Below, piece after piece: positions 25,540-41,019 of a stretch of 49,143 nucleotides of DNA (positions are counted from its first letter, which is position 1; each line of letters starts with the position of its first letter). Location: assembly GCA_003021975.1 (NCBI GenBank), contig PXRR01000007.1, positions 2,612 to 51,754 of the forward strand. The letters are read 5' to 3'. The notes under the pieces were generated by a model. It was not told the origin of the DNA, did not search any database, and was given only the letters and a program-made list of their open reading frames with translations. The DNA is from Halobacteriales archaeon QS_5_70_17. Its GTDB lineage: Archaea; Halobacteriota; Halobacteria; Halobacteriales; Haloarculaceae. A program made the position numbers and the translations under genes.

Positions 25540-25644
25540 GGGCACGTAGCTCAGCCTGGACCAGAGCGTCGGACTTCTATCCCCGGTCGGCCCCGGCCGG
25601 GGGAAGACATCCGATGGCCGTGGGTTCGAATCCCACCGTGCTCG
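25540..25644 (+). tRNA. tRNA-Arg(UCU) with 29-nt intron
   Basis: Acceptor GGGCACG (25540-25546) pairs with CGTGCTC (25637-25643), with discriminator G at 25644. The D arm is GCTC/GAGC, the anticodon stem TCGGA (25569-25573)/TCCGA (25610-25614), the variable loop TGGCC and the T arm GTGGG-TTCGAAT-CCCAC. The loop reads C-U-UCU-A-A after removal of 25580-25608, so the anticodon is UCU, reading AGA and AGG. Mature length is 76 nt. No CCA is encoded. Confidence 0.93.
25580..25608 (+). other. Archaeal tRNA intron (bulge-helix-bulge) at position 37/38
   Basis: A canonical motif. Central 4-bp helix CTTC (25574-25577)/GAAG (25603-25606), 5' bulge TAT (25578-25580), 3' bulge ACA (25607-25609) and intron helix CCCCGG (25581-25586)/CCGGGG (25597-25602). 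Cutting after the second base of each bulge joins A25579 to A25609 and restores a seven-base anticodon loop. It would be removed by the splicing endonuclease EndA. Confidence 0.88.
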
Positions 25645-37783: not shown

Positions 37784-37789
37784 TTTATA
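37784..37789 (+). promoter_or_regulatory. Box A upstream of the arginine cluster
   Basis: TTTATA, the clearest TATA element in the window, centred about 28 bp before an ATG at 37815 and about 205 bp before argG. No comparable box stands at the -27 position of argG, so the transcript probably starts at the mini-ORF. Confidence 0.6.
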
Positions 37790-37814
37790 CCCCTCGGGCG
37801 GTACAGGTCGAGTA

Positions 37815-37895
37815 ATGCCACGGACCCACCCCGACGACGCGCTGTCGAGCAGTGGGTGCCGCCGTCCGCGTCCGCGACCGCGACCGGGCCGTTAG
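37815..37895 (+). CDS. Candidate Arg-rich leader peptide of the arginine operon
   Basis: 26 codons from ATG to TAG. Seven are Arg, six of them in the last eleven (C-R-R-P-R-P-R-P-R-P-G-R pattern), using CGT and CGA as well as CGC and CGG. The box A spacing fits leaderless translation of this ORF. It is followed 96 bp later by argG, which has no Shine-Dalgarno sequence. By analogy with bacterial amino-acid leader peptides it could sense charged tRNA-Arg. High-G+C shadow frames are also Arg/Pro-rich, so coding is unproven. Confidence 0.35.
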   Translation: MPRTHPDDALSSSGCRRPRPRPRPGR

Positions 37896-37900
37896 GCCCG
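37885..37900 (+). promoter_or_regulatory. Hairpin at the leader stop codon
   Basis: CGGGCC-GTTA-GGCCCG, a perfect 6-bp stem with a four-base loop. The leader TAG (37893-37895) lies in loop and stem. A second imperfect hairpin (ACC-G-GTG-TTG-CAC-GGT) follows at about 37917-37932. Ribosome position on the Arg codons would decide whether the first stem forms. Confidence 0.4.
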
Positions 37901-37991
37901 CATCTATCCTCACTCCACCGGTGTTGCACGGTTCACGACGACTAGGCGTCCGGTTCGCGGCGCCACTCGACGACCCCACACGACACGCTAC

Positions 37992-39215
37992 ATGACATCC
38001 GACCACGAATCCGACAAAGTCGCGCTCGCCTTCTCGGGGGGGCTCGACACGACCGTCTGCGTTCCGCTGCTGAAAGAGGAGTACGGCTACGACGAGGTGA
38101 TCGGCGTCACCGTCGACGTCGGCCAGCCCGAAGCCGAGTTCGACGAGGCCGAGGCGACCGCCGCCGCGCTGAACCTGGAACACTACGTCGTCGACGCCCA
38201 GTCTGCGTTCGCCGACCTCTGTCTCGACGCCGTCCGCGCGAACGCCGACTACCAGGGCTACCCCCTGGGAACGGCGCTCGCGCGCCCCGTGATCGCCCAG
38301 GCCATCCTCGAGGTGGCCGAGGAGCACGACTGCGCCGCCATCGCGCACGGCTGTACCGGCAAGGGCAACGACCAGCTCCGGTTCGAGGCCGTCTGGCGGC
38401 AGTCCCCCCTCGAAGTGATCGCGCCGGTGCGCGAACTCGGGTTGACCCGCGAGTGGGAGAACGAGTACGCCGCCGAGCGCGAACTCCCCGTCGAGGGGGG
38501 CAACGAGGGCGCCTGGAGCATCGACACGAACCTCTGGAGCCGCTCGGTGGAGGGCGACGACCTCGAGGATCCGGGCTACGTCCCCCCCGAGGACATCTAC
38601 GAGTGGACGGCGGCCCCCGGGAACGCCGAGACGGAACTCGTCGAACTGGAGTTCGAGAACGGCTACCCGGTCGCGGTCGACGGCGAGGCGATGGACTCCG
38701 TCGCGCTCGTCGAGCACCTCAACGAGCGCGCCGGCGCCCACGGGATCGGCCGCACCGACGTGATGGAGGATCGGATGCTCGGCCTGAAGGTCCGCGAGAA
38801 CTACGAGCACCCCGCCGCGACCGTCCTGCTGACCGCCCACGAGGCCCTGGAGGGGCTCGTGTTGACCCAGGAGGAGCGGTCGTTCAAACAGCAGATCGAC
38901 CAGCAGTGGTCCCAGAAGGCCTACCAGGGGCTGATCGACGCACCGCTGGTGGGCGCCCTCGAGGGGTTCGTCGACGAGACCCAGACGCGGGTCACCGGGA
39001 CCGTCACGGTCAAGTTAGAGGGCGGGCAGTGTCGCGCGGTCGCCCGCGAGAGCGAGTACGCGGTCTACTCCGAGGAGGCAGCCTCGTTCAACACCGAGAC
39101 CGTCGACGGCATCGAGCAGGCCGACGCCACCGGCGTCGCCAAGTACCACGGCTACCAGGGCCGCCTCGCCAACAGCGTGATCGACGGCGTGGCCCGCGCG
39201 GGCACGGAGAAGTGA
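37992..39215 (+). CDS. argG: Argininosuccinate synthase
   Basis: 407 residues. PP-loop ATP motif VALAFSGGLDTTVC at the N-terminus, then HGCTGKGNDQLRFE and WSIDTNLWSRSVEG, both family signatures. It joins citrulline and aspartate with ATP to argininosuccinate. It lies downstream of the putative leader with a 5' region of about 175 nt, long for a haloarchaeal gene. argH follows with one base between stop and ATG. Confidence 0.97.
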   Translation: MTSDHESDKVALAFSGGLDTTVCVPLLKEEYGYDEVIGVTVDVGQPEAEFDEAEATAAALNLEHYVVDAQSAFADLCLDAVRANADYQGYPLGTALARPVIAQAILEVAEEHDCAAIAHGCTGKGNDQLRFEAVWRQSPLEVIAPVRELGLTREWENEYAAERELPVEGGNEGAWSIDTNLWSRSVEGDDLEDPGYVPPEDIYEWTAAPGNAETELVELEFENGYPVAVDGEAMDSVALVEHLNERAGAHGIGRTDVMEDRMLGLKVRENYEHPAATVLLTAHEALEGLVLTQEERSFKQQIDQQWSQKAYQGLIDAPLVGALEGFVDETQTRVTGTVTVKLEGGQCRAVARESEYAVYSEEAASFNTETVDGIEQADATGVAKYHGYQGRLANSVIDGVARAGTEK

Positions 39216-39216
39216 G

Positions 39217-40668
39217 ATGACCGGCGAGCGCGACGTGGTGCGACGCGAGCGGTTCAGCGGTGGCCCGGCCCGGGAGTTCCTCTCGTCGCTGCCGGCCGAC
39301 CGGCGGATCTTCGCCGCCGACCTCGCGGTCGACCGCGCGCACGTCGTGATGCTCGCCGAGCAGGGCATCGTCGCCGCCGACGAGGCCGGCGAGATCCTCA
39401 CCGCGCTGGACATCGTCGAGGTCGACGGCCACGGCGCGCTCCCCGAGGGCGAGGACGTCCACGCGGCCATCGAGACGGCCGTCATCGAGGAGATCGGCCC
39501 CGTCGGGGGGAAGATGCACACCGCCCGCTCGCGCAACGACGAGGTGGCGACGTGCATCCGCTACCGCCTGCGCGAGGACCTGCTGGACGCGGTCGAGGCG
39601 ACGCTCGGTCTGCGGGAGGCGCTGTCCGCGACCGCCGCCGAGCACGTCGAGACGGTGATGCCGGGGTTCACTCACCTCCAGCCCGCTCAGCCGACGACCG
39701 TCGCCCACTGGCTGTGCTCCTACGAGTCGGCGCTGCGCCGGGACGCGGCGCGCCTGCTCGACGCCTACGACCGGACCAATCGCTCGCCGCTGGGCGCGGC
39801 GGCGTTCGCCGGCACCACCTTCGACGTGGACCGCGAGCGGGTCGCGGACCTGCTGGGATTCGACGGCGTGATCGAGAACGCCATGGACGCCAGCGCGACC
39901 CGCGATTTCCTCGTGGAGTCGACGGCGGCGCTGGCCGGTCTGGCGACGACGCTGTCGGGACTCGCAGAGGACCTCGTGGTCTTCGCGAACAAGGGCCTGA
40001 TCGAACTCGACGACGACTACGCCTCCACGTCCTCGATCATGCCCCAGAAGAAGAACCCCGACACGCTCGAACTCGTCCGCGCGACGTCCGGCGACGCCAG
40101 CGCCGGACTGAACGGTCTGTTGACGACGCTGAAGGGGCTCCCCCGGGCGTACAACCGCGACCTCCAGCGGGCGACCCCCCACGCGTGGGCGACCGTCGAC
40201 GGGGTCGCCGAGGCGACCGACGTGGCCGCCGGCGCCGTCGCCACCGCCGACTGGCCCGAGGAGCGACTGGCCGCCGCGGCCGGCGAGGGGTTCACGACGG
40301 CCACGGGGGTCGCGGACCTGCTTGCGGCCGCCGGGATCCCGTTCCGGACGGCCCACGAGATCCTCGCGCGGGTCGCCGAGGGGAGCGCCGATCCCGACTA
40401 CGCGGCGGTCGCGGCGGCCGCCGAGGACGTCCTCGACGAGGACCTGGGGGCGCACGTCTCCCGGGAGGCCGTCGAGTCGGCCCTCGATCCCGCCGAGAGC
40501 GTCGCCGCGCGGGACTCCACCGGCGGTCCCGCGCCGTCGGCGGTCGCCGACCAGCTCGACGCCGCGGAGGAGGCGCTGGCCGACGACGAGCGCCGGACGG
40601 CCGACCGCCGGGAGGCGCTGGCCGACGCCGCCGACCGGCTCCGCGGGGAGGTGCGGCGCTATGTCTGA
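39217..40668 (+). CDS. argH: Argininosuccinate lyase
   Basis: 483 residues of the fumarase/aspartase superfamily. Signature TSSIMPQKKNPDTLEL near 275, HTARSRNDEV near 107 and GFTHLQPAQPTT near 150. It releases arginine and fumarate from argininosuccinate. The ATG overlaps the argG end as TGAGATG. A Shine-Dalgarno-like GGGGAGGTG close to its 3' end precedes a mini-ORF that overlaps its stop. Confidence 0.97.
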   Translation: MTGERDVVRRERFSGGPAREFLSSLPADRRIFAADLAVDRAHVVMLAEQGIVAADEAGEILTALDIVEVDGHGALPEGEDVHAAIETAVIEEIGPVGGKMHTARSRNDEVATCIRYRLREDLLDAVEATLGLREALSATAAEHVETVMPGFTHLQPAQPTTVAHWLCSYESALRRDAARLLDAYDRTNRSPLGAAAFAGTTFDVDRERVADLLGFDGVIENAMDASATRDFLVESTAALAGLATTLSGLAEDLVVFANKGLIELDDDYASTSSIMPQKKNPDTLELVRATSGDASAGLNGLLTTLKGLPRAYNRDLQRATPHAWATVDGVAEATDVAAGAVATADWPEERLAAAAGEGFTTATGVADLLAAAGIPFRTAHEILARVAEGSADPDYAAVAAAAEDVLDEDLGAHVSREAVESALDPAESVAARDSTGGPAPSAVADQLDAAEEALADDERRTADRREALADAADRLRGEVRRYV

Positions 40669-40732
40669 GCGACCGCCCCTCCCCGAGCGACCGCCGCCGT
40701 CCCCCTCCGGGGACGAACTACCACATCCATGA
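40661..40732 (+). CDS. Possible Pro-rich mini-ORF between argH and lysW
   Basis: 23 codons (MSERPPLPERPPPSPSGDEL then PHP), starting 8 bases inside the argH end and preceded by GGGGAGGTG at a spacing of 8 bases. The ribosome-site match is as good as any in the window, but the sequence also encodes the argH C-terminus, so chance is a fair explanation. Confidence 0.22.
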   Translation: MSERPPLPERPPPSPSGDELPHP

Positions 40733-40791
40733 TACACCGAGTCCGAAGTCGGCGTTGAACGGACGTTCGGCTCCCGTTAGCGGCGGAACTG

Positions 40792-40804
40792 TCTTTATTT
40801 TTCT
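40792..40804 (+). terminator. T-rich terminator after argH
   Basis: TCTTTATTTTTCT in an otherwise G+C-rich gap; typical archaeal oligo-U termination signal. It separates argGH from the lysW operon, which then has its own weak box (TAAGTAC, 40824-40830) about 27 bp before ATG 40855. Confidence 0.5.
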
Positions 40805-40854
40805 CTGACAAAAACGACGGAACTAAGTACCCGTAGCGGCCAGTATCAGGTACA

Positions 40855-41019
40855 ATGGCAAGCTGTCCCGAGTGCGGGTCCGACGTGACCCTGCACGACG
40901 ACATCGAAGTGGGAGAGATCGTCGACTGTGGCACGTGCGGTGCGGAGCTCGAGGTCATCGACACCGACCCCGTCGAGCTCGACACCGCACCCGAGCTCGA
41001 AGAGGACTGGGGGGAGTAG
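40855..41019 (+). CDS. lysW: LysW-type amino-group carrier protein
   Basis: 54 residues, too short for most gene screens. Zinc knuckles CPECG and CGTCG, an acidic body, and the C-terminal EDWGE whose terminal glutamate is the attachment point for the substrate amino group. It carries glutamate and its derivatives through ArgX, ArgB, ArgC, ArgD and ArgE, protecting the amino group as acetyl does in the classical pathway. argX starts two bases after its stop. Confidence 0.95.
   Translation: MASCPECGSDVTLHDDIEVGEIVDCGTCGAELEVIDTDPVELDTAPELEEDWGE

Follow-up and report, generated by a model that had tools for sequence, protein, structure and literature searches.

Comparative sequence evidence for a translated arginine leader before haloarchaeal argG, with related leaders before lysW and ilvB

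Leader-peptide attenuation in bacteria is a textbook mechanism that needs the coupling of transcription and translation. In the ribosome-mediated attenuators (e.g. the trpL, hisL and ilvBNC leaders) a short ORF carries, just 5' of a hairpin, codons for the amino acid that the pathway makes and is followed by a biosynthetic operon, a layout that the haloarchaeal leaders described here share. They differ from their bacterial counterparts in starting leaderless or at a stop-start overlap, in sensor codons that touch the hairpin, and in a stop codon placed in or beside it. A pair of mutually exclusive helices is not conserved among them, nor does the argG leader of the stretch analysed carry a U-tract. 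We do not claim membership of the attenuator class, of which a terminator/antiterminator pair is part, and say only that the leader appears to work like a bacterial attenuator. There is also a likeness to factor-dependent leaders of the tnaC/Rho type, in that access to the G-poor, pyrimidine-rich stretch downstream could depend on a ribosome at or near the leader stop. To our knowledge Archaea have no Rho, and FttA/aCPSF1 would be the candidate factor. This factor is reported to prefer U-tracts (PMC8716108), which the haloarchaeal linker lacks.

T-boxes and other amino-acid riboswitches likewise monitor amino-acid supply from within the 5' leader, whereas the conserved part here is a translated ORF plus one short hairpin, and Rfam covariance models gave no match at the leaders. 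The fungal arginine attenuator peptide (the arg-2/CPA1 upstream ORF) is another arginine-linked ORF 5' of an arginine gene, but there a conserved peptide sequence stalls the ribosome at the stop codon when arginine is high; in haloarchaea the peptide is variable, with no conserved stalling sequence and no NCBIfam match, and it is the arginine codons themselves that are conserved. The searchable literature describes amino-acid leader peptides in bacteria and none in archaea (subscription papers fall mostly outside this scope, and the upstream ORF may have been detected earlier in Ribo-seq or small-proteome work on Haloferax). Studies of haloarchaeal arginine genes found there (including PMC8305020) leave the leader unmentioned; a first-pass annotation of this DNA knew of no arginine leader of the kind described in haloarchaea.

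The window, i.e. the whole stretch of DNA analysed (49,143 nt), comes from Halobacteriales archaeon QS_5_70_17 (GCA_003021975.1, contig PXRR01000007.1, positions 2,612-51,754 of the forward strand). The first-pass annotation had proposed an attenuator upstream of argG from the letters of the window alone, and the elements that it listed, namely a TATA box, an ATG, a 26-codon ORF with Arg at six of its last eleven codons and a stop codon within a perfect 6-bp hairpin, match base for base, the TAG spanning loop and 3' arm. The unusually long 5' leader of argG is there as well, its start lying 177 nt past the leader ATG and having no Shine-Dalgarno sequence. Folding energy of the whole leader was no better than that of shuffled sequences (z = 0.11), and the window by itself (folding energy, Arg content) is insufficient to prove the leader, whereas the comparison of loci is, at the level of sequence, enough to do so. 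Elsewhere in the window, positions 25540-25644 (+) hold a tRNA (Rfam RF00005) that, at 105 nt for a 71-position model, probably contains an intron.

Table 1. Predicted leader elements and neighbouring genes of the arginine operon in the window (window coordinates).
Feature	Position	Strand	Evidence
TATA element of leader 1 promoter, TTTATA	37784..37789	+	sequence
Leader ORF 1, 26 codons, MPRTHPDDALSSSGCRRPRPRPRPGR then stop (ATG at 37815, TAG at 37893-37895), predicted leaderless start	37815..37895	+	sequence and conserved frame
Arg codon tract RRPRPRPRPGR of leader 1	37860..37892	+	codon usage over all loci
Stop-containing hairpin CGGGCC-GUUA-GGCCCG	37885..37900	+	sequence and arm-swap test
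G-poor, pyrimidine-rich linker 3' of leader 1 hairpin	37901..37921	+	linker G content over loci
argG, argininosuccinate synthase, first gene of the arg operon	37992..39215	+	locus comparison
Leader ORF 2, MSERPPLPERPPPSPSGDELPHP then stop, begins inside the argH stop (ATGTCTGA)	40661..40732	+	comparison of 71 loci
Leader 2 hairpin CGUCCCC-CUCC-GGGGACG	40698..40715	+	core conserved, outer pairs compensated
TTTTTC between leader 2 and lysW, the T5C terminator motif of Haloferax volcanii (PMC7237163)	40798..40803	+	sequence
lysW/argW carrier protein gene 3' of leader 2	40855..41019	+	sequence; operon order compared with PMC8305020

For the comparison we assembled 80 argG loci from GTDB genomes, 30 from order-level relatives and the window region, 111 in all and 107 of them distinct. 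The same unit recurs at the 107 distinct loci: TATA box, ATG, an ORF with an Arg tract, a GC-rich hairpin with the stop codon in it or beside it, a G-poor linker and then argG. In 104 of them the first T of the TATA box lies 29-34 nt from the leader ATG, which is the geometry of leaderless haloarchaeal transcripts. The ORF measures 22-87 codons, lies 68-208 nt 5' of argG in nearly all loci and has an Arg-rich end (e.g. RRRRPGR, RPRPGR or RRRPGLF before the stop). Leaders of Halonotius and Halohasta (L042, L044, L073, L079) have diverged, that of Halolamina (L033) keeps the motif with an uncertain start codon, and in families f2, f9 and f11, which branch deep in the order (loci L159-L164), argG is found without this leader. 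Across core haloarchaea, the Arg codons, the stop-hairpin order and box A are kept while spacers vary, as the first-pass annotation expected of a real element, and loss of the ORF in close relatives, which it had named as speaking against the idea, was not seen among the core argG loci compared.

A covariance-model search for the argG element in 77 genomes gave one strong match per genome, 54 of them with E < 0.001, and the matches fetched as loci (the strongest among those followed up) all precede argG. Second genomic copies were rejected; the weaker matches examined fell within genes (upp and a RecB-like gene) or were unconvincing. A scanner requiring a leaderless ATG, an in-frame stop inside a GC hairpin and a G-poor linker returned 55 matches in 1.84 Mb of argG loci (both strands), of which 49 were automatically labelled argG leaders, four fell beyond the coordinate filter and proved on inspection to be argG leaders, and two were unrelated.

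Reading frame was assessed by placing the ATG from the TATA box and searching the hairpin loop for a stop triplet in any of the three frames. All 72 loci that have one, with 15 different ORF lengths among them, keep it in frame with this ATG; since related loci are not independent we give no probability, and regard the 15 lengths as a cautious tally of indels that preserved the frame. The leader accommodates long in-frame insertions (L004, L009), the longest ORF (87 codons) being that of L004, and the L063 leader begins with GTG where its relatives carry ATG. As to codon choice, CGA makes up 59% of the 833 leader Arg codons over all loci against 5.2% of 10,202 in neighbouring genes, and at least two CGA codons occur in 103 of the 107 argG leaders. 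In each of the 73 loci measured, the last Arg codon starts 1-5 nt ahead of the 5' arm of the hairpin. Apart from the Arg codons the peptide is variable, and among 16 Halorubrum species the main CGA columns are invariant, with 17 amino-acid-changing and 2 synonymous-only cases among the other variable leader codons. That CGA is kept while the remaining peptide varies fits selection for the codon and a codon sensor, and not a functional microprotein. Sensing by translation of the leader ORF is, by these comparisons, well supported.

In most argG loci the stop codon is found within the hairpin, in its loop or its 3' arm; Halorubrum and a few others have it just past that arm, and Halonotius and Halohasta well past the hairpin. 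The arms vary with compensation, e.g. GGGCC/GGCCC, GGGGUCU/AGACCCC (L096, L099), CGGGCUC/GAGCCCG (L031, L094), GGCCC/GGGCC (L006, L109) and CUGGCCU/AGGCCAG (L076). Column-wise covariation on a MAFFT alignment was weak because clades differ in stem register, so arms were instead swapped between loci, and a locus's own arms paired better than those from other loci in 93 of 102 cases. We also considered a helix between the Arg tract and downstream RNA as an antiterminator and did not adopt it: the two were complementary beyond mononucleotide shuffles in 87 of 102 loci, but own segments paired better than swapped ones in only 52 of 102, with no co-variation. As a separate observation, in Halorubrum (L054 and others) the Arg tract CGGCGCG-CGCGACGA could pair, almost without mismatch and around the stop-hairpin, with TCGTCGCG-CGCGCCG, a conserved sequence downstream. 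By eye, the leader-argG gap of several loci (L003, L011, L014, L017, L018, L020, L022, L055) contains CCGCCC-GTCGGGT-GGGCGG-ACCCGAC segments shortly 5' of argG that might fold into a pseudoknot or into two mutually exclusive helices.

A second, leaderless-type promoter (P2) stands directly 5' of argG, after the leader, in 58 of the 107 loci, and 49 lack it. At the P2 loci the leader therefore cannot be the sole control of argG, which implies that it would add a starvation boost on top of a basal promoter. The linker 3' of the hairpin contains 8% G in loci without P2 and 15% in those with it. Between leader and argG, T-tracts do not exceed chance in the 49 loci without P2 (5 against 4.9 expected), a class that includes the window, whose own argG leader has none; they are enriched in the loci with P2 (42 of 58, with 22.5 expected).

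The same operon carries another arginine leader (leader 2), before lysW. Most of the CGA-rich ORFs seen around 7.7-8.1 kb of the argG loci were lysW read in the wrong frame and were discarded, and inspection there exposed an ORF that starts inside the argH stop. Among 71 loci scored, the overlap is ATGTCTGA in 40 and ATGNNTGA, TAA or TAG in the others; leader 2 is missing in eight loci, at least one of these from a mis-called argH. Its composition is 22% Arg and 21% Pro, with CGA at 52% of 480 Arg codons, and the Haloferax version (L006) reaches 82 codons, 20 of them CGA. A CCCC-loop-GGGG hairpin is embedded in or lies 3' of the ORF, its core present in most loci and its outer pairs compensating one another (GUCCCC/GGGGAC, AUCCCC/GGGGAU, CGAUCCCC/GGGGAUCG, GGCCCC/GGGGCC), and in eight loci the stop codon is inside the hairpin, as in leader 1. 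Whole-leader folding energy was no better than in shuffles for leader 2 also, and a T tract follows it in 47 of the 71 loci against 26.9 expected.

The promoters of lysW (e.g. window 40775-40840, L013) and the argG P2 promoters (e.g. L034, L024) have in common a motif near GTTAGNGTGCNCTCTA on their 5' side, with AT-rich DNA after it. Sequences within three mismatches of TAGCGTGCAGTC occur at 16 of 58 argG P2 loci (2.2 expected), 22 of 71 lysW loci (4.2 expected) and 0 of 49 argG loci without P2, and the GTTAGNGTGCNCTCTA/TAGCGTGCAGTC motif may be an operator for a regulator.

Leaders of the same build precede ilvB, where the ORF ends in IIVGV, RIVGAL or AIVGA in 24 tabulated core haloarchaeal loci. 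In its DNA (ATT ATT GTA GGG GTC TAG CCCCTAC) the Ile and Val codons run into the hairpin GUAGGGG-UCUAG-CCCCUAC, followed by a G-poor linker. Over the last twelve codons, ATT supplies 74% of Ile against 9% in ilvB, and GTA 50% of Val against 0.7%. The window's own genome has this leader too (L180). At L345 (G031:C2:397921, minus strand) another Ile/Val-type leader, MRQLDTDSHTAPASGGAVGARLIVGV, has its stop in a hairpin and precedes a small ORF beginning MTENRRTTNDNRDDDQQTMADVDHTPPHEAPG, not ilvB. Trp- or His-rich leaders were sought at trpE, trpC, trpD and hisG and none was found: the scanner gave only five scattered, unrelated matches at the trpC, trpD and hisG loci (0.64 Mb) and no match at trpE. 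The CGA enrichment, the second arginine leader before lysW and the putative Ile/Val counterpart before ilvB go beyond what the first-pass annotation had proposed.

We consider the argG element to be probably a cis-acting, translation-dependent amino-acid sensor, i.e. an archaeal leader-peptide attenuator for arginine. Sequence comparison shows the ORF, its frame, the rare-codon tract, the stop-hairpin and the operon specificity; what we infer is translation in vivo, stalling, and an output by premature termination rather than by RNA decay or blocked translation. The original proposal is supported as regards the conserved ORF, Arg codons and stop-hairpin; its output step is less secure, no T-tract terminator or mutually exclusive helices being conserved at the window argG leader. 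RNA polymerase would start at or beside the leader ATG, a ribosome following on the leaderless message. With arginine plentiful, the ribosome would clear the rare CGA codons and release at the stop inside the hairpin, which would then re-form, so that the transcript ends or is cleaved 5' of argG. When arginine is scarce, charged tRNA-Arg(UCG) would drop and the ribosome stall on the CGA codons, its leading edge, by the usual size of a ribosome footprint, covering the 5' arm; the hairpin would not form and transcription would read into argG. Leader 2, entered by ribosomes leaving argH, would gate lysW onward, and ilvB would be gated by the same device with ATT and GTA codons. Premature termination may be aided by FttA/aCPSF1. 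For Haloferax volcanii, termination of 95% at a T5C stretch and of 59% at one hairpin tested has been reported (PMC7237163). With T-tracts at chance in the 49 window-like loci, either termination would depend there on the hairpin itself or on a factor, or the output would be post-transcriptional.

This last option, in which the ribosome's position on the same sensor controls argG translation or mRNA stability (through reinitiation, access to the start site or RNase entry at the hairpin) and not termination, is rather unlikely. The 68-208 nt between leader stop and argG in loci without P2, with no T-tract enrichment, would suit it, as would possible extra helices seen by eye near argG in Haloarcula-like loci and the stop-start overlap of leader 2, which is a layout of translational coupling. 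T-tract enrichment at P2 loci and after leader 2 speaks for termination instead, and where argG has its own promoter after the leader (58 of 107 loci) controlling the translation of P1 transcripts only would have little effect.

Readings that dispense with a sensor fare much worse. An Arg-rich microprotein acting in trans would account for conservation of the ORF and for the recurrent Arg-Pro-Gly C-terminus, but we hold it very improbable given a peptide that varies freely apart from its Arg codons over such a range of lengths, the retention of CGA itself beyond Arg alone, a stop tied to an RNA hairpin and the absence of an NCBIfam match. Hardly credible, finally, is a protein-binding site in DNA or RNA, or a terminator, with an incidental ORF: hairpin and CGA-rich tract are indeed the most conserved bases, yet such a site explains neither the frame kept throughout, large insertions included, nor the rare codons, matched to the pathway that follows, at two unrelated operons.

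Returning to the arginine attenuator, we lean towards a general and hitherto undescribed haloarchaeal class of ribosome-sensing attenuators, made of a leaderless micro-ORF rich in the rarest cognate codons and ending inside a hairpin, that controls the making of isoleucine/valine and of arginine, the latter at two places in one operon, if not of more amino acids, by translation-coupled transcription attenuation, with termination at some sites proceeding without a conserved U-tract. If true, such a class, spread across core haloarchaea at two unrelated operons and equipped with rare-codon sensors, would mean that archaea gate transcription or early expression by ribosome position, and Haloferax volcanii would offer a simple system for studying coupling, aCPSF1/FttA action and codon-specific tRNA charging.
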